Below are positions 21 to 12,540 of a stretch of DNA of 64,000 nt, in pieces. Positions within the stretch are counted from its first letter, which is position 1; each line of letters begins with the position of its first letter. Under the pieces are notes generated by a model that saw nothing but the letters and a program-made list of their open reading frames with translations, did not search any database and was not told the DNA's origin. This DNA is from Slackia heliotrinireducens DSM 20476 (GTDB lineage Bacteria > Actinomycetota > Coriobacteriia > Coriobacteriales > Eggerthellaceae): the NCBI RefSeq assembly GCF_000023885.1, contig NC_013165.1, positions 2,356,001 through 2,420,000 on the forward strand, given 5' to 3'. Both the position numbers and the translations under genes were made by a program.

Positions 21-1226
21 TTATTGGTAATGCAACGATTCGACCGGGTCGAGCTTCGCGGCGCGCCGCGCTGGCCCGTAGCCGAAAACCACGCCGATGC
101 CCGTGCAGATTCCAGCCACAATCAGCATGTCCCGCAGCGAGAAATAAGGCGTGACGGTCATGCCTTCCGCCAAAGACGAAGCAACGCCCGAAAGCGCAAG
201 GGCGCTTCCATAACCCACAAGGATGCCGATAATGCCACCGATCAGGCACAACGCAATCGACTCGATCAAAAATTGCTTTGTGATGTCGGCATTTCGCGCG
301 CCCAGGGCCTTGCGCAGACCAATCTCGCGGATGCGCTCGGTCACGTTCGTCAGCATCATGTTCATGATGCCGATGCCGCCGACCAGAAGCGAGATGCTTG
401 CAACCGCCGTCATCATGAGCTGGAACGACATCATCGTGGCGTTCACCTCGTCCAGAAGCGACTGCATGGTCTGTACGTACACGTATCCAAGACCGCTCTC
501 GTCGTCTTCCTCGCTTATCCCGTAACGTTCCCGCAGATACGATTCGGTCCTTTCGCCGAGAGTCGCCATGTCGGCGTCTTCGGTGGCAAACCCCACGATC
601 GTGTCGACGCTCGCATACCCAGAGATACGGGCCACGCAGGTCGGGAACGGGATATAGGCCGAGCCTTGGTTTACAAGCAGACTGGCGGATTCCACCACGC
701 CCACTACCACGTACTCATCGTTGCCGATGGTGACTCGTTTGCCGGCGGCTTGTTCATCCGCTCCGAACAGTTCGCGAGAAAGATAGCTGTCGATAACTAC
801 CGACATGCTGCCCGAAGCCAGCTCGTCGTCAGTCAAAAGACGCCCCTCTTTCAAAGTCATGCCCATTGCGTCGAAGAAATGTTCCCCGACGCCCATCACA
901 GTGGATTGCTGCTGCTTGGTGCCTGTGGAAACCGTGCTGGACGACCATTGCGCACCAGCCACATAGTCGTACCCATCCACATTCTCTTCGATTCCAGCAA
1001 GGTCTTCGAAGGTGTTCTCCTGTCCCGTGTACAGATCGATCATCACCATGCGGGATTGGTCAAGGCCAAGCTCACCCACCAAGGACTGCTTCACGCCTCC
1101 GATAAGCGACACCATGGCGATGACAGCGGCAATGCCGATGACGATGCCCAAAATGGTCAGGAAGCTGCGGCCCTTGTTCGCCGCCAGCGCCGACCAGGTT
1201 TCATATAGAAGGTCCCTGATTCTCAC
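21..1226 (-). CDS. MacB-type ABC transporter permease (FtsX domain)
   Basis: A 401-residue inner-membrane permease that probably expels a peptide, antibiotic or lipid together with the two genes upstream. One membrane segment lies at about residues 21-43, then a large extracytoplasmic domain, then three more segments near the C-terminus. The loop with ERIREIGLRKALGA is typical of FtsX/MacB permeases. It starts at GTG with GGAAGGGGG just upstream, and this GTG overlaps the ATPase stop by four bases, so the two are translationally coupled. The substrate cannot be read from the sequence. Confidence 0.88.
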   Translation of the reverse strand: MRIRDLLYETWSALAANKGRSFLTILGIVIGIAAVIAMVSLIGGVKQSLVGELGLDQSRMVMIDLYTGQENTFEDLAGIEENVDGYDYVAGAQWSSSTVSTGTKQQQSTVMGVGEHFFDAMGMTLKEGRLLTDDELASGSMSVVIDSYLSRELFGADEQAAGKRVTIGNDEYVVVGVVESASLLVNQGSAYIPFPTCVARISGYASVDTIVGFATEDADMATLGERTESYLRERYGISEEDDESGLGYVYVQTMQSLLDEVNATMMSFQLMMTAVASISLLVGGIGIMNMMLTNVTERIREIGLRKALGARNADITKQFLIESIALCLIGGIIGILVGYGSALALSGVASSLAEGMTVTPYFSLRDMLIVAGICTGIGVVFGYGPARRAAKLDPVESLHYQ

Positions 1227-1954
1227 GTGCGCCCCCTTCCGAGGTTCGAACTTGCCGCCACCATGGCACGCTCCTCCTCGTCGGTGAGCAGCTTGCCGTC
1301 TCTAATATGCACCGTGCGATCGGCCCAGTCGGCGACTTCGGGGTCGTGGGTGATGAGGACTACGGTTTTGCCGGCGTCACTCAGTCGCCGGAACGTGGTC
1401 AAGACCATATGGCCCGTGGCAGAGTCCAGGTTGCCGGTCGGTTCGTCGGCGAGAATGAGTGCCGGGTCGTTGACCAAGGCGCGGGCGATGGCCACGCGCT
1501 GCATCTGGCCGCCGGACAGCTCGTTTGACTTGTGGTCGAAATACTCGGCTGGCAGGCCCACCGACTCCAGCGCGTCACAGGCGCGCGTCAGACGCTCGGA
1601 CACGGGGCAATCGGAGTAGATCAGCGGCAGCATGACATTGCGGATAACCGTTGCACGGGGCAGAAGGTTGAACGACTGGAACACGAATCCCAGGCGGGTC
1701 GAACGCACCTCTGCAAGTTCATCGTCATCGAGCGTGGACACGTCAATCCCCTCGAGGAAATACTGTCCCGACGTAGGCCTGTCCAAGCACCCCAAGATAT
1801 TCATGAACGTGGATTTTCCCGAACCGGACGGACCCATGATGCATAGGAACTCGCCCCGCTCCACCGTTAGCGACACGCCGCGCAAGACGTGGGTGAGCCC
1901 GGCCTTGCTCTCATATATGCGATGTATGTTGCGAACATCCAAGACGGGAGGCAT
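1223..1954 (-). CDS. ABC transporter ATP-binding protein (MacB/LolD type)
   Basis: Cytoplasmic ATPase of 243 residues that powers the adjacent FtsX-type permease. Visible motifs are Walker A GPSGSGKST at residues 41-49, a Q-loop (FQSFNLLP), the signature LSGGQMQRVAIARAL, Walker B ILADEPTGNLDS and the switch histidine in LITHDP. The LPRATV region after the Q-loop is typical of the MacB/LolD/FtsE branch. It begins one base after the stop of the adaptor gene and ends inside the permease start, so the three genes form one operon. Confidence 0.93.
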   Translation of the reverse strand: MPPVLDVRNIHRIYESKAGLTHVLRGVSLTVERGEFLCIMGPSGSGKSTFMNILGCLDRPTSGQYFLEGIDVSTLDDDELAEVRSTRLGFVFQSFNLLPRATVIRNVMLPLIYSDCPVSERLTRACDALESVGLPAEYFDHKSNELSGGQMQRVAIARALVNDPALILADEPTGNLDSATGHMVLTTFRRLSDAGKTVVLITHDPEVADWADRTVHIRDGKLLTDEEERAMVAASSNLGRGRT

Positions 1955-1955
1955 G

Positions 1956-3566
1956 CTAGTATCCCATCATCGCGCCGTCGTCTTCGAGCATTTCGCCTTC
2001 GAAGCTCGGTATGAGCAGCGTGTCGTCCGCCTGGACATCGCCGGTCACCACGGCTGTGGCGGCATCCTGAGCCTGCACCTCCACAGTGCGGAGCTCGACC
2101 AAATCGCCGCCGGCGTCATCGGTGCCCGTGACCACTTGCACGTCGAACGTCCCGTCGCCATTGTCGATAAGCGCCGATGTCGGCACCATGAGCACATCCT
2201 CCAGGCTTTGCGAGACAATCTTCACGCTGGCGGTCATGCCGGGTTTCACCCGTTCGTCGGGTTCGGGAATAACCAGTTCGACCGCATAGGTGACGATGCC
2301 GCCCGGCTGGTAGGACTCGCCTTCGCCGGGGTTTCCGGAAGCCAACGTGGCAATGTGGCGCACCTCTGCATCCAGCTCCACGTCCGGCAACGCCGCAAAG
2401 GTGACCTTTGCCTGCTGGCCCTCTTGCACGTTGTTGACATCGACTTCGTTCACTTGAACGGTCACCTGCAACGACTCAAGGTCGGCGATGGTCACAAGCG
2501 AGCCCGTCGCCTGTGACGTTCCGCCTTCGGCCTGACCGATGGCGGCGCCTTCTTCGGCGGACATGGCGATGATCGTTCCCGACTTGGGCGCCTTCACCGT
2601 GCGCTTCTCAGCGGTGGCGACGGCCTGGTCGTATGCGTCCTTTGCGGATTGGAGGGCGATGTTGGCGTTGTCGAGCTCGATCTGGGCATTGTCCACAGCC
2701 AGCTGCAGCTCTTCTGTCGATACGCTCGGTTGCTGAACGGCGTAGGCGTCGGAATCCCCCGATCCGCCATAGTCGCCGTAATCGGCATACTCGCCGTAGT
2801 CGCCGGCATCGGCATATGCGGCGCCATCGGGCGATGTGTCGTCTTCGGGACCGTTGATGTAGTCGGTCCTCACCGTAGCCGCCTCATGGGGCCTGTACGT
2901 AGCCCAGCTGAATTCGGCGGCACCGTACGGCCGCTGAACCTTCGCCGAAGCCAATCCGTTGATGCCGCTGTTGGCGTCGGACAAGGCCTTCTTCGCGTTC
3001 TTCAAGGCCAGCTCAGCAGAGGTCACGCCGTTTTGCGCGGTCTTGACCTGCTGGTTGGCCTCCGTTACCGCTTTGTCCAGGGAATCGTTCTTGATGTAGA
3101 AGAGGACGTCGCCTTCTTCCACCTGGTCGCCTTCGGCAACCTGCACGTCGGTAATGATGCCGTCAACCTCCGGCGTGACCACGACTGAGGAAGCGGGCTG
3201 CGTCGACCCAGATGCAGACACATTGGCTTCGAAAGTCCCCTGCTCGACGTATCCGTATTCCGCCTCAGGAAGAGCATCCACGTTGTTCGCGTTGTTCCAG
3301 AGGGCGTACCCGCCTACGCCCACGGCAAGAACCGCAGCAACTGCAGCGCCACGAATGATGCGCTTGCGGCGCTTCTTCTTGCGGCGGCGTTCAAGCGTCT
3401 GATAGGCGCTCAGTCCTTCGATTTCATCTGAAGTAGGAGAAGACTGTTCGTCAGGCGATGCAGGTACGGTATTGGGAATGCCCTGCAAAGGCGCGGGAGG
3501 AACCACATTGGGGTTCTCACCTGCCGTGGGAATGTTGATGGCAGACTGCTTCCGTTGGAATAACAT
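1956..3566 (-). CDS. HlyD/MacA-family periplasmic adaptor subunit
   Basis: Membrane-fusion adaptor of 536 residues that would link the ABC pump to the cell envelope. It has a cytoplasmic N-terminus rich in Lys/Arg (61-72), one membrane anchor (about 73-90), a lipoyl-like half domain (VQVAEGDQVEEGDVLFYI), a coiled-coil hairpin and a beta-barrel. The coiled coil is interrupted at about residues 212-280 by a Tyr/Gly/Asp-rich insert (GDYGEYADYGDYGG). The ATG at 3566 was chosen over one 15 codons upstream because GAGAGGGG sits five bases before it. First gene of the efflux operon. Confidence 0.85.
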   Translation of the reverse strand: MLFQRKQSAINIPTAGENPNVVPPAPLQGIPNTVPASPDEQSSPTSDEIEGLSAYQTLERRRKKKRRKRIIRGAAVAAVLAVGVGGYALWNNANNVDALPEAEYGYVEQGTFEANVSASGSTQPASSVVVTPEVDGIITDVQVAEGDQVEEGDVLFYIKNDSLDKAVTEANQQVKTAQNGVTSAELALKNAKKALSDANSGINGLASAKVQRPYGAAEFSWATYRPHEAATVRTDYINGPEDDTSPDGAAYADAGDYGEYADYGDYGGSGDSDAYAVQQPSVSTEELQLAVDNAQIELDNANIALQSAKDAYDQAVATAEKRTVKAPKSGTIIAMSAEEGAAIGQAEGGTSQATGSLVTIADLESLQVTVQVNEVDVNNVQEGQQAKVTFAALPDVELDAEVRHIATLASGNPGEGESYQPGGIVTYAVELVIPEPDERVKPGMTASVKIVSQSLEDVLMVPTSALIDNGDGTFDVQVVTGTDDAGGDLVELRTVEVQAQDAATAVVTGDVQADDTLLIPSFEGEMLEDDGAMMGY

Positions 3567-3783
3567 GGTGCCCCTCTCAAGCGTGCTGTGTTTATAGTAC
3601 GATTCCTGCATAAGGAGAGCGTTTATTCACCTTACACGGATGGACGATGCCCTTGGTGAAGAGAGGGCAACAAGTCAGAAACAAAGCATAGTGCAGAGGG
3701 AAGGCACCTGGCCGCATCGGACACGCGCAACCAACGCCCCACAGGCGCGAAATCCGACAGGCGCCGCGTTCGATCGATTCGAG

Positions 3784-4224
3784 CTAGCGGGCCACCACGT
3801 CTAAGTCCTCGTCGGCCTCGGAATCAGAACCGGCTACGGCCTCCACGTCCATGGAGCCGCCGCTTTCGCCGGATCGGACCACTTCGATCCACAGTTTATG
3901 GGGAAGACAGATGATCTGGCGGCCTGGCGCAGAAACGCTTCCCTGGCGCATGCAGTCGTGGCCGTCGCAGTCGGCGTCATCCATGTACACTTCGCCGTCC
4001 TGCACCACGACGACGTTCGTGCCCAGGTCAGTGGTCACTTCCAGGGTGTCGTCGGTGTCCAGCGGCATCTCGTACACGTTGCCGTCGGAGTCGTGCACCA
4101 TGGCGACCAGCTCGCCGTCCGAGCCGCCGCCCAGCATCATGCCGACGACCACGAAAGAACCCACCAGAACGGCGGCTATGACGGCGATCGCGATGGCCGT
4201 CGTTGTGTTCACCTTGCCCGCCAT
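3784..4224 (-). CDS. NusG domain II protein (EetA-like)
   Basis: Small membrane-anchored extracytoplasmic protein of 146 residues with one N-terminal membrane segment (9-33), then a NusG-II domain. The domain is marked by three cysteines (C86, C91, C106) in a DCDGHDC stretch followed by IICLPHKLWIEV. In the Listeria extracellular electron transfer locus a NusG-II protein (EetA) works with a Gx-transporter protein (EetB) and a flavinylated lipoprotein; the same families neighbour this gene. It ends an operon, 9 bases after apbE, with AGGAGG before its ATG. The acidic tail after residue 118 is probably disordered. Electron transfer is inferred from context. Confidence 0.75.
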   Translation of the reverse strand: MAGKVNTTTAIAIAVIAAVLVGSFVVVGMMLGGGSDGELVAMVHDSDGNVYEMPLDTDDTLEVTTDLGTNVVVVQDGEVYMDDADCDGHDCMRQGSVSAPGRQIICLPHKLWIEVVRSGESGGSMDVEAVAGSDSEADEDLDVVAR

Positions 4225-4233
4225 GCGGTCCTC

Positions 4234-5280
4234 CTATAGAAGTTCCATCTGGGAATTCTCAGTTTGCAGAATGGTGCCGTCGTCCAAAACGAGCAGACCC
4301 TGCAACGATTGGCGCCCCTCGATGAACGCCAAGGCATCCTCATGATTCATCATGAACAGCGGCTTGGTGAAGCCGTCGCCGTCGATGGACGCCTCGGATA
4401 CGATGGTGGCTCCCATCACGTCGGTTTCCACCGGATATCCGGTCTTCGGGTCCAGAATGTGCCAATAGCGCCTGCCGTCCTCTTCGAACACACGCTCGTA
4501 CAGGCCGCTTGTCACCACAGAGGTGTTTTCGGAAGCTATCTTGGCCAGCACATTGGATGAGTCCGCCGGATCCTGGATGCCCACGTTCCACGGGTTGCCG
4601 TCGGGCTTGCATCCCAGGGTTTTCACGTTGCCGCCCAGGTTGACGAAAGCGCTTTCGCACCCCTCGTCCAACAGCAGGTTCACCAGGTCGTCGGCGATGT
4701 AGCCCTTCGCGATGCCGCCCAGGTCGATCTTGCCCTTGGGGTCGGCCAGCGTGACGGTGGTGCCGTCCACCATGACCTGCGTGTAATCGATGTGGGTGAC
4801 GGCCTCGGCAAGCTCGTCGGGGTCGGGCACGATGCCCTCTTTGAAGTCCCACAGCGACGTGGCCGCGCCGATGGTTATGTCGAAGCGCCCCTCGGATTCG
4901 TCGCAGTACACGAGCGCCTTCGAGATGAGGTCCGCCGTGGTCGGTTCCACCGTAACCGGCTCGCCGCCTGCGGCGTTGATGCGTCCCACATCGCTTCCTT
5001 CGATGGTGCGCGACAGCGTGTTCTCGAAGAAGGTGCACCTATCCTGCAGCTTGACCATCACCTCCATGGTGGTGGCCGCCTTGATGATGATGACCGTGTC
5101 GAACGCGAAGAATTCCACCGACTGGAGCCCGTCGTCTTCCGATTCCAAGCTCATGAGGACCTTATCCGCATCGGCGGAAACATCCGGTTTCTGACGCGAG
5201 CAGCCAGGCGCCAGAAAACAACCGAGCGCACCGGCCGAAGCCAGTGCGCCCAGATGCGTGAATGTACGTCTTGTCAGCAA
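4234..5280 (-). CDS. apbE: FAD:protein FMN transferase, ApbE family lipoprotein
   Basis: Covalently attaches FMN from FAD to Ser/Thr of target proteins outside the membrane. The 348-residue protein carries DLGGIAKGY, VNLGGNVKTLG, TSGLYER and HILDPKTGYP, all ApbE signatures. The N-terminus has a twin-arginine-like RRTF and a lipobox ending LAPGC, so it is likely an exported lipoprotein. Translation begins at TTG nine bases after the stop of the FMN-binding gene, in the same frame, and no strong ribosome site is seen, which suggests translational coupling. Its obvious substrate is the FMN-binding lipoprotein encoded just upstream. Confidence 0.92.
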   Translation of the reverse strand: MLTRRTFTHLGALASAGALGCFLAPGCSRQKPDVSADADKVLMSLESEDDGLQSVEFFAFDTVIIIKAATTMEVMVKLQDRCTFFENTLSRTIEGSDVGRINAAGGEPVTVEPTTADLISKALVYCDESEGRFDITIGAATSLWDFKEGIVPDPDELAEAVTHIDYTQVMVDGTTVTLADPKGKIDLGGIAKGYIADDLVNLLLDEGCESAFVNLGGNVKTLGCKPDGNPWNVGIQDPADSSNVLAKIASENTSVVTSGLYERVFEEDGRRYWHILDPKTGYPVETDVMGATIVSEASIDGDGFTKPLFMMNHEDALAFIEGRQSLQGLLVLDDGTILQTENSQMELL

Positions 5281-5289
5281 GTCTGATGC

Positions 5290-5652
5290 TTATGCAGCAG
5301 CCTGAGCCAGAGCGTCTTCGACAGCGGCCTTGACGCCGTTAGAGGTCAGGGTTGCGCCGGCAACGCCCTCGATTTCAGCGGACTGAGCCTCTTCGATCTG
5401 AGACTTGAAGGTGCCGTCAGCAATGGCCTCGGCGCCACCGATGCCCGCGGTCTCGCCCGGGTCGGTGATCTCGTCAACGGTGATCTGGTCATCGGCGATG
5501 GTCAGGGTGACGGTGATGTCGCCGCTCTTGCCGGTGCCGGTGCCGGTGTAGGTGCCATCGTTGTACATGGAGCTGCCGCCGCCGCAGCTAGCGAGCAGGA
5601 GCATGGCGCTCATGGCGAAAGCGCAGGCCGTAACCGTAAGGATCTTCTTCAT
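5290..5652 (-). CDS. FMN-binding domain lipoprotein (flavinylation target)
   Basis: A 120-residue secreted lipoprotein: signal peptide, lipobox LLLASC, then one FMN_bind domain. VAGATLTSNG matches the motif in which ApbE esterifies FMN to a Thr/Ser. It is probably a one-domain electron carrier on the outer face of the membrane, like PplA but with a single site. The ATG at 5652 has AAAGGA six bases upstream and is preferred to two earlier ATGs. The 199 bp upstream contain TTGACG and, 18 bases on, TGATAG, a possible promoter that would start the FMN_bind-apbE-NusG_II transcript separately from the fusion gene. Confidence 0.88.
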   Translation of the reverse strand: MKKILTVTACAFAMSAMLLLASCGGGSSMYNDGTYTGTGTGKSGDITVTLTIADDQITVDEITDPGETAGIGGAEAIADGTFKSQIEEAQSAEIEGVAGATLTSNGVKAAVEDALAQAAA

Positions 5653-5851
5653 TTCTTGTCCTTTCGACATGGCGTACGGACCCCTCCTCCGCATGCCTAT
5701 TTAATAAAACGAAGGTATTCTATCAGAAAAAGAAGAGGACGCGCGTCAATTTGGACGTTGCAAGGAAATTGTTTCATTCGCGCAACACTTATTCCCCATT
5801 GTGTTCACGTTGCGTACATATTGCCGCAAGCGCCTTCGCGAAGGGCGCCCG

Positions 5852-7078
5852 TCAGGAGTCTTGACTTATGCGCCCCATAACGGCCTCGGCATAGGAGTCT
5901 GCACGTGACGCTTCCCATACAGCCAGGTCGCGAAGGATGTTCGCATATACCCCTGCTTTGGCGCGCAACGAAACATCCGGGTCTTCCGGCTTAAGCCGCT
6001 GTGCGCGCAGCGTTCTGAAATGCTCGACCATGTCGGGGGCCGAACGCATGGCCACGTCGACCGCGAGCATCAAGCCTTCCAAGGGGATGCCGATGCGCGA
6101 CAAGGGCCCCGACAGCCTTGCGAGCGACGCAGCCGCCTCGTCCAGTCGGACCACGCGCATGAACGCCACGTTTGCCGCCACGATGCACGCGAGCCGCACC
6201 AGCATGCGCGCGGTCTCGTGCAGGGCGTCGTAGGTCACCATCAGGCCTCCGATGGCGAAAGCCGCGTCGCCTTCTTGAAAGCTTATGACCTGAAACACCA
6301 TGGTGAACAGGGCGATGGCTGCAAGGGGCTTGAGGGCCTTCAACATGTCTTTGGGCCTGACCTGCGCATACACAAGCATGGCCAGAGCAAGCGCTGCCGA
6401 GGCACCCAGCGTGCGGACCCCTGAGAAGTTGAGCACCGCCACCACGTACACCACCAGAACCGCGCACGCGATCCTAAACGGCACCTGGCGTGCGGATTGC
6501 GAACGGCTCGCCGGCAGCGCCGCCTTTCCGGCCTGCGGCGAATCGGCCAGGGGCATGCCGGCCGGCGGCTCGGCAGCCGCGCTTTCGTCGGCACCTTCCA
6601 GCGCCTGCACTGCCTGGTTGGCCAGAAGCCCGCTCACCGTGCCCGTCAGGCAGCCGGCGACCAGCAATATGGGCAGGCTGTACCACACGAGCGGTGTACC
6701 TAGCAGGACCGATGCCACGGCAAGCTGCCCCACGTTGTGAAGCATGCCGCCGGCCGCAGACACCACGGCAAGATGCAGGCCGGGCACGCGAATCAGCAGG
6801 GCCATGGCCGCAAACGCCAGCAGCGTGCCGGCGACCGAATAGGCCATCATGATGGGCGAGCCGAACAGGAACCCGGCGGCCAGCACCTTCACCATCGCGA
6901 CGAAAAAAGCGCTCTTCGTGTCGTAGCGGACCAGGGCCACCAGCACCACGATGTTGGCCAAGCCCAGCTTGACGCCGGGTATGGGGATGGGCACGAAGGT
7001 CTCGACATAGCTCAGCAGCAGGGCGAACGCCGCCAATACGCCGACATGGGCCCACCGCCGGGCCTCTTCGATCTGCAT
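5852..7078 (-). CDS. Gx-transporter (EetB-like) / EcfT-like fusion membrane protein
   Basis: Fused membrane protein of 408 residues. Residues 1-160 match the Gx transporter family (also named heptaprenyl diphosphate synthase component I), a relative of ECF S-components, with FVPIPIPGVKLGLANIVVL near the start and GGMLHNVGQLAVA later. A Pro/Ala-rich linker covers 161-199. Residues 200-408 resemble EcfT/CbiQ coupling proteins and end in a cytoplasmic helix with RAQRLKPED. In Listeria, EetB and FmnA (EcfT-like) are separate products of one electron-transfer locus; here they look joined. ATG at 7078 has AGGAGGT six bases upstream. Its own role (flavin export, quinone or electron transfer) is inferred. 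Confidence 0.8.
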   Translation of the reverse strand: MQIEEARRWAHVGVLAAFALLLSYVETFVPIPIPGVKLGLANIVVLVALVRYDTKSAFFVAMVKVLAAGFLFGSPIMMAYSVAGTLLAFAAMALLIRVPGLHLAVVSAAGGMLHNVGQLAVASVLLGTPLVWYSLPILLVAGCLTGTVSGLLANQAVQALEGADESAAAEPPAGMPLADSPQAGKAALPASRSQSARQVPFRIACAVLVVYVVAVLNFSGVRTLGASAALALAMLVYAQVRPKDMLKALKPLAAIALFTMVFQVISFQEGDAAFAIGGLMVTYDALHETARMLVRLACIVAANVAFMRVVRLDEAAASLARLSGPLSRIGIPLEGLMLAVDVAMRSAPDMVEHFRTLRAQRLKPEDPDVSLRAKAGVYANILRDLAVWEASRADSYAEAVMGRISQDS

Positions 7079-7131: not shown

Positions 7132-7168
7132 AAAAAGAAAACGGGAGGCCCCGTTGCGAGCCTCCCGT
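7132..7168 (-). terminator. Rho-independent terminator after the peptidase gene
   Basis: On the minus strand a nine-pair stem ACGGGAGGC/GCCTCCCGT is followed by TTTCTTTTT, immediately after the peptidase stop codon. It isolates the peptidase gene from the flavin locus. Confidence 0.8.
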
Positions 7169-12363: not shown

Positions 12364-12540
12364 GCGACCCCACCCGCACGGACACCCTTTCCAGCCGCTC
12401 GGGGATGCCTCCAATGCGCCAAGCACAACCCCATCTGCATGGGCATCCTTTCCAACCGCCAGGGGCTGCCTCCAATCCCCCAAGCGCGACCCCGCCTGCA
12501 TGGACACCCCTCCCCTAGCCGAAGGCCTCCGGGCCACGCA
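12364..12540. repeat. Three degenerate ~60-bp tandem repeats between convergent genes
   Basis: Units at 12364-12422, 12423-12483 and 12484-12540 share the order ACCCC-CCTGCATGG-CACCC, a TTTCCA(A/G)CCGC block and GCCTCCAAT-CCAAG; the third is the most diverged. Parts of the unit (CCGCAGGACC) also recur at 12310-12360. They lie between the terminators of two convergent genes and carry no recognisable gene; open frames through them give Gly/Trp/Arg-rich peptides without a ribosome site. Confidence 0.7.

Follow-up and report, generated by a model that had tools for sequence, protein, structure and literature searches.

The window, the whole stretch of 64,000 nucleotides analysed here from the genome of the rumen bacterium Slackia heliotrinireducens, carries on its minus strand between positions 3784 and 7123 four proteins: an EetA-like NusG_II protein, an ApbE FAD:protein FMN transferase, an FMN_bind lipoprotein and a Gx (EetB) membrane protein. 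Each has a strong Pfam family match, and the E-values of the four matches exclude chance. The sequence-only reading had placed these four families together on one strand, and the Pfam searches confirm it. A terminator-like hairpin on the same strand (7141–7168), recognized by consensus match alone, parts the locus from an upstream iminopeptidase-like gene. No σ70 promoter was found at consensus in the region, and a plasmid search gave no match. Downstream of the locus, the minus strand encodes a MacA/MacB-like efflux set of adaptor, ATPase and permease (21–3611), and elsewhere in the window a short tandem array (12367–12509, 2.3 copies of a 61-base unit) lies between two transporter-like genes.

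The closest PDB relative of the ApbE protein (4234–5280, minus strand, 348 amino acids from a TTG start; PF02424, 1.6e-77) is FmnB of Listeria monocytogenes (7esa, 4e-53), and its N-terminus displays an RR-containing, lipoprotein-like signal, which, like its lipobox, we read from the sequence. The FMN_bind protein, encoded in an open reading frame spanning 5290–5694, contains one PF04205 domain (3.4e-14) that matches the FMN4 domain 8p2b in the PDB. Its best start is at 5652, which gives a 120-residue protein (5290–5652, minus strand) with the putative lipobox LASC. A single AGATLTS flavinylation motif (5341–5361, minus strand), in which the predicted FMN-bearing Thr is encoded at 5350–5352, agrees with the earlier description of a one-site lipoprotein; in the alignment, the first position of this motif is Ala here and Ser or Thr in most relatives. 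The EetA-like protein (3784–4224, minus strand; PF07009, 2.9e-25) carries a CxxxxC...CxPH pattern, the three cysteines of which are present in nearly all aligned EetA proteins and suggest a disulfide, thiol or metal site.

The Gx protein (5852–7078, minus strand, 408 amino acids), whose best start is the ATG at 7078 with AGGAGG upstream, extends further than the sequence-only reading described. Residues 15–155 (6614–7036) match positions 1–146 of the 147-position PF07456 (Hpre_diP_synt_I/Gx) profile with an E-value of 6.1e-36, and residues of about 196–403 (5870–6493) form an ECF T-component half (PF02361, CbiQ, 5.8e-6), so the protein is a Gx–EcfT, or S–T, fusion and a predicted FAD exporter. 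Its AlphaFold2 model has a mean pLDDT of 87.8 and a pTM of 0.84. In Foldseek searches, the N-terminal half, modeled with the six-helix fold of an S component, matches RibU (TMt 0.68), and the C-terminal half adopts the membrane fold of EcfT from folate ECF transporters (9kym, 7nnt and 4huq; TMt 0.63–0.66). A profile of the fusion family searched against the PDB likewise finds EcfT (9e-27) and, weakly, RibU (0.0016). The T half had gone unnoticed in the sequence-only reading, and its description of the gene set as reduced is correct only in part, since a counterpart of FmnA is there, fused to Gx and eroded.

The erosion affects the region through which T components engage their motor. The two T-component signatures are ATPase coupling sites, and replacement of their Arg residues inactivates subgroup II ECF transporters (PMC3246461). 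We built a 268-position T model from 12 T components whose C-termini are complete; they reach positions 263–267, as do three full-length fusions, and all 15 carry an Arg at both signatures as well as the last transmembrane helix. The window fusion ends at model position 230, two other Eggerthellaceae fusions end at 225, and 20 of 20 fusions from another family of the order end at 171–194, with the coupling domain absent (in three of these 20, where the alignment becomes marginal, the first signature position is occupied by an Arg). Signature 1, in full-length T components A-R-G or a close variant, has no Arg in the window protein, where it reads AQRLK (5990–6004; QRLKP if shifted by one residue), and signature 2 (VMGR) is truncated directly after its Arg (5870–5872), which lies five residues from the C-terminus. 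The structural model has no helix beyond residue 407. The last transmembrane helix is missing from 23 of 23 reduced fusions, and their signatures are eroded or absent; the window protein stands between full-length T components and the most reduced fusions and may retain weak ATPase coupling.

A frameshift as the origin of the short T half was considered and rejected: the window protein and its counterparts at L037 and L081 have no downstream continuation in any frame, and the loss recurs in 23 species. Neutral decay is not favored either, as the T half has a dN/dS of about 0.18–0.44 in the informative pairs (near-identical pairs being uninformative), which indicates purifying selection, nearly as strong in several pairs as that on the Gx half. 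A tree built from the Gx half only unites the 23 reduced fusions (93/72; recovered in 91% of bootstrap trees). An alternative topology, with the Eggerthellaceae reduced fusions placed among their full-length relatives and separate from the other family, could nevertheless not be rejected (p-AU 0.32). A single loss of the coupling part is therefore favored, and two losses are possible. EcfA-like ATPases are encoded in 22 of the 23 genomes with reduced fusions, so a missing motor does not account for the loss.

The ApbE–EetA–Gx linkage recurs within Eggerthellaceae and also in further families of the order. PF07456 genes were found in 25 of the 138 family genomes and in none of the 11 other genomes of the same genus that were searched, and a profile search of the contigs with a two-sequence alignment returned one locus only. 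In many relatives no T gene adjoins Gx, and in a second family of the order Gx–T fusions occur in at least 20 species. In a sample of 396 genomes from the phylum, no Gx–T fusion occurs outside the class, where two genomes do have a Gx match. One relative (L073:6845–8185) joins Gx instead to an ABC ATPase domain, with a full EcfT encoded separately next to it; this is another way of fusing parts of the same exporter, and it supports an ECF role for Gx.

The neighbors of the cassette vary. An FMN_bind–FAD_binding_2 protein lies near it in four Eggerthellaceae loci (L070, L077, L085 and L088), and a NapH-like Fer4_5 protein together with FMN_bind or multi-FMN proteins in four others (L072, L073, L080 and L084). 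Proteins that each contain three or four FMN_bind stretches stand beside the cassette at L080:206–2140, L084:13923–15689 and L083:4443–6095, and two of these proteins adjoin a NapH-like Fer4_5 protein. Fusion genomes of the second family each encode exactly one FMN_bind protein; in the one such genome examined, it is RnfG, and the rnf operon lies about 4 kb from the cassette. In published work, eetB clusters with Rnf, EET, NapH-like and MsrQ-like systems.

The S. heliotrinireducens genome encodes three FMN_bind proteins: the lipoprotein of the locus, a Tat-type FMN_bind–FAD_binding_2 protein (L034) and a lipoprotein (L035) adjoining a Tat-signal FAD_binding_2 protein. No Rnf subunits were seen near any of the three, and Rnf as a local client is rejected for this genome. 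Of the two ApbE genes, the second (321 amino acids, L068:7754–8719, at about 2.338 Mb of the genome) lies near a CobU gene and has no FMN_bind neighbor; its product shows no evident signal peptide and is possibly cytosolic. As the sequence-only reading had stated, Ndh2 and demethylmenaquinone genes are not adjacent to the locus. A genome-wide search with NDH2_C is a weak negative, its control missing genomes known to have Ndh-2, and E. coli Ndh was therefore used as a query; with it, Ndh-2 was not detected genome-wide beyond a weak partial match (2.4e-5). The genome has one UbiA prenyltransferase, about 0.8 Mb from the locus, and a set of housekeeping EcfA/A′/T genes at about 2.664 Mb, the EcfT of which has intact signatures. 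Considering (i) that the other FMN_bind clients lie in or beside FAD_binding_2 proteins and (ii) that Ndh-2 was not detected, the acceptor side seems closer to extracytosolic flavoprotein reductases than to Listeria EET.

We consider it on balance probable that the locus is an FAD-export and flavinylation module in which export by the fusion is uncoupled from EcfA/A′ or only weakly coupled to it. The EetB–EcfT fusion would move FAD out of the cytosol, and the membrane-anchored ApbE would cleave it and join FMN by a covalent bond to the AGATLTS Thr of the lipoprotein, and probably also flavinylate the two other FMN_bind proteins of the genome. The flavinylated lipoprotein would then carry electrons along the outside of the membrane, with flavoprotein reductases as the likeliest recipients and EetA as a putative accessory. 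During export, the S half could topple against the tethered T scaffold while FAD goes down its gradient, the use of FAD by ApbE outside pulling the process. Because the T half has lost its coupling part, fully in the other family and largely here, export is probably uncoupled or weakly coupled; since FAD plausibly runs downhill on its way out to ApbE, an exporter that works without ATP is reasonable. The Ala at the first position of the flavinylation motif counts against the proposal. A stricter version of the proposal, in which the single-chain EetB–T lineage exports FAD without any ATPase, with the T half as a toppling scaffold and ApbE making the transport unidirectional, is one that we put forward tentatively, at somewhat below even chances.

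Uncoupling has to be weighed against the possibility that the fusion is an ordinary ATP-driven ECF FAD exporter that, as in Listeria, still docks the shared EcfA/A′ despite its eroded signatures. The Arg at signature 2 is kept, a Lys occupies the Arg position of signature 1 and the coupling-region helices are still predicted in the structural model, so weak docking of an ATPase is possible; furthermore, EcfA/A′ genes are present in S. heliotrinireducens, as in almost every genome that has a reduced fusion, and FAD export in Listeria needs EcfA/A′ (PMC9973259). However, signature 1 has no Arg, signature 2 ends the protein, the last transmembrane helix is gone and 20 relatives are entirely devoid of the coupling domain, and we regard full ATP coupling as possible but rather unlikely. 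The intact housekeeping EcfT with its EcfA/A′, and the many relatives in which Gx has no T gene beside it, allow another arrangement, in which the S half works with the housekeeping module, as subgroup II S components do, and the T half survives as a structural remnant. Against this arrangement, which appears quite improbable, stand the purifying selection on the T half described above and the inability of the housekeeping EcfT of Listeria to stand in for FmnA in FAD export.

The sequence-only reading had taken the locus for a flavin-based EET locus in a minimal version fed by the quinone pool. The families are indeed those of the Listeria locus, with FmnB as the closest solved relative of ApbE, and the UbiA prenyltransferase could be cited in its favor, but Ndh-2 was not detected, the lipoprotein has one FMN site, the demethylmenaquinone genes are not adjacent and the other clients point to FAD_binding_2 proteins. 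We thus consider a true Listeria-like minimal EET locus unlikely, and FAD export with protein flavinylation the best-supported role. The Pfam name of PF07456 alone suggests a component of a prenyl-diphosphate synthase; this assignment is contradicted by the S-component fold with its RibU match, by the fusions to T or ABC domains, by the ApbE and EetA context and by Listeria EetB, also a PF07456 protein, which binds FAD and resembles RibU (PMC9973259), and it can safely be set aside.

Uncoupled or weakly coupled export of FAD by the fusion would bear on how ECF-type exporters work, a mechanism described as little known (PMC9973259). According to the importer model, the S component is freed from the T–ATPase module when ATP is hydrolysed; a protein in which S is tethered to T and the docking site is lost offers a direct test of whether export needs ATP and S release. 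The fusion is also a compact single-chain candidate for structure determination and reconstitution, and a marker of flavinylation systems in Coriobacteriia of the gut and the rumen.

The nearest known system is that of Listeria, in which EetB–FmnA–EcfA/A′, FmnB and PplA, together with EetA, represent the same families of S component, T component, ApbE, FMN lipoprotein and NusG_II protein. PplA carries two FMN_bind sites, where the lipoprotein described here has one. In Listeria, EetB and FmnA export FAD for flavinylation by ApbE, flavinylation of PplA by FmnB needs EetB, FmnA and EcfA/A′, and mutants deleted for eetA show no EET phenotype (PMC9973259). In the locus described here, by contrast, S and T are one chain, the T half has neither intact signatures nor the last transmembrane helix, and the Ndh2 and demethylmenaquinone genes are missing. 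EetB–ECF-T fusions of the same domain architecture have been reported in several bacteria, e.g. WP_021725833.1 and, in Fig. 2C of that study, WP_012799238.1 (PMC9973259). The latter may be the window fusion itself, although we found no paper tying this accession to S. heliotrinireducens. Both the module and the S–T fusion are of published kinds; loss of the coupling part of the T half was not found described, either in the main text of PMC9973259 or in literature searches covering open-licence papers. With EcfT, BioN and CbiQ, the T half shares the fold and sequence of the membrane part, but not the two Arg signatures and the last transmembrane helix, which are eroded or missing in the fusion. 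A parallel for transport without an ECF ATPase is provided by BtuM and BioY, which transport without an ECF module, and for BtuM facilitated diffusion was proposed, combined with an enzyme that works on the substrate once it has been imported (PMC6072759). The enzyme partner is BtuR there and would be ApbE here; BtuM and BioY, however, are importers with no T domain, whereas in the S. heliotrinireducens protein a T-derived half is fused to the S component and transport would be directed outward.
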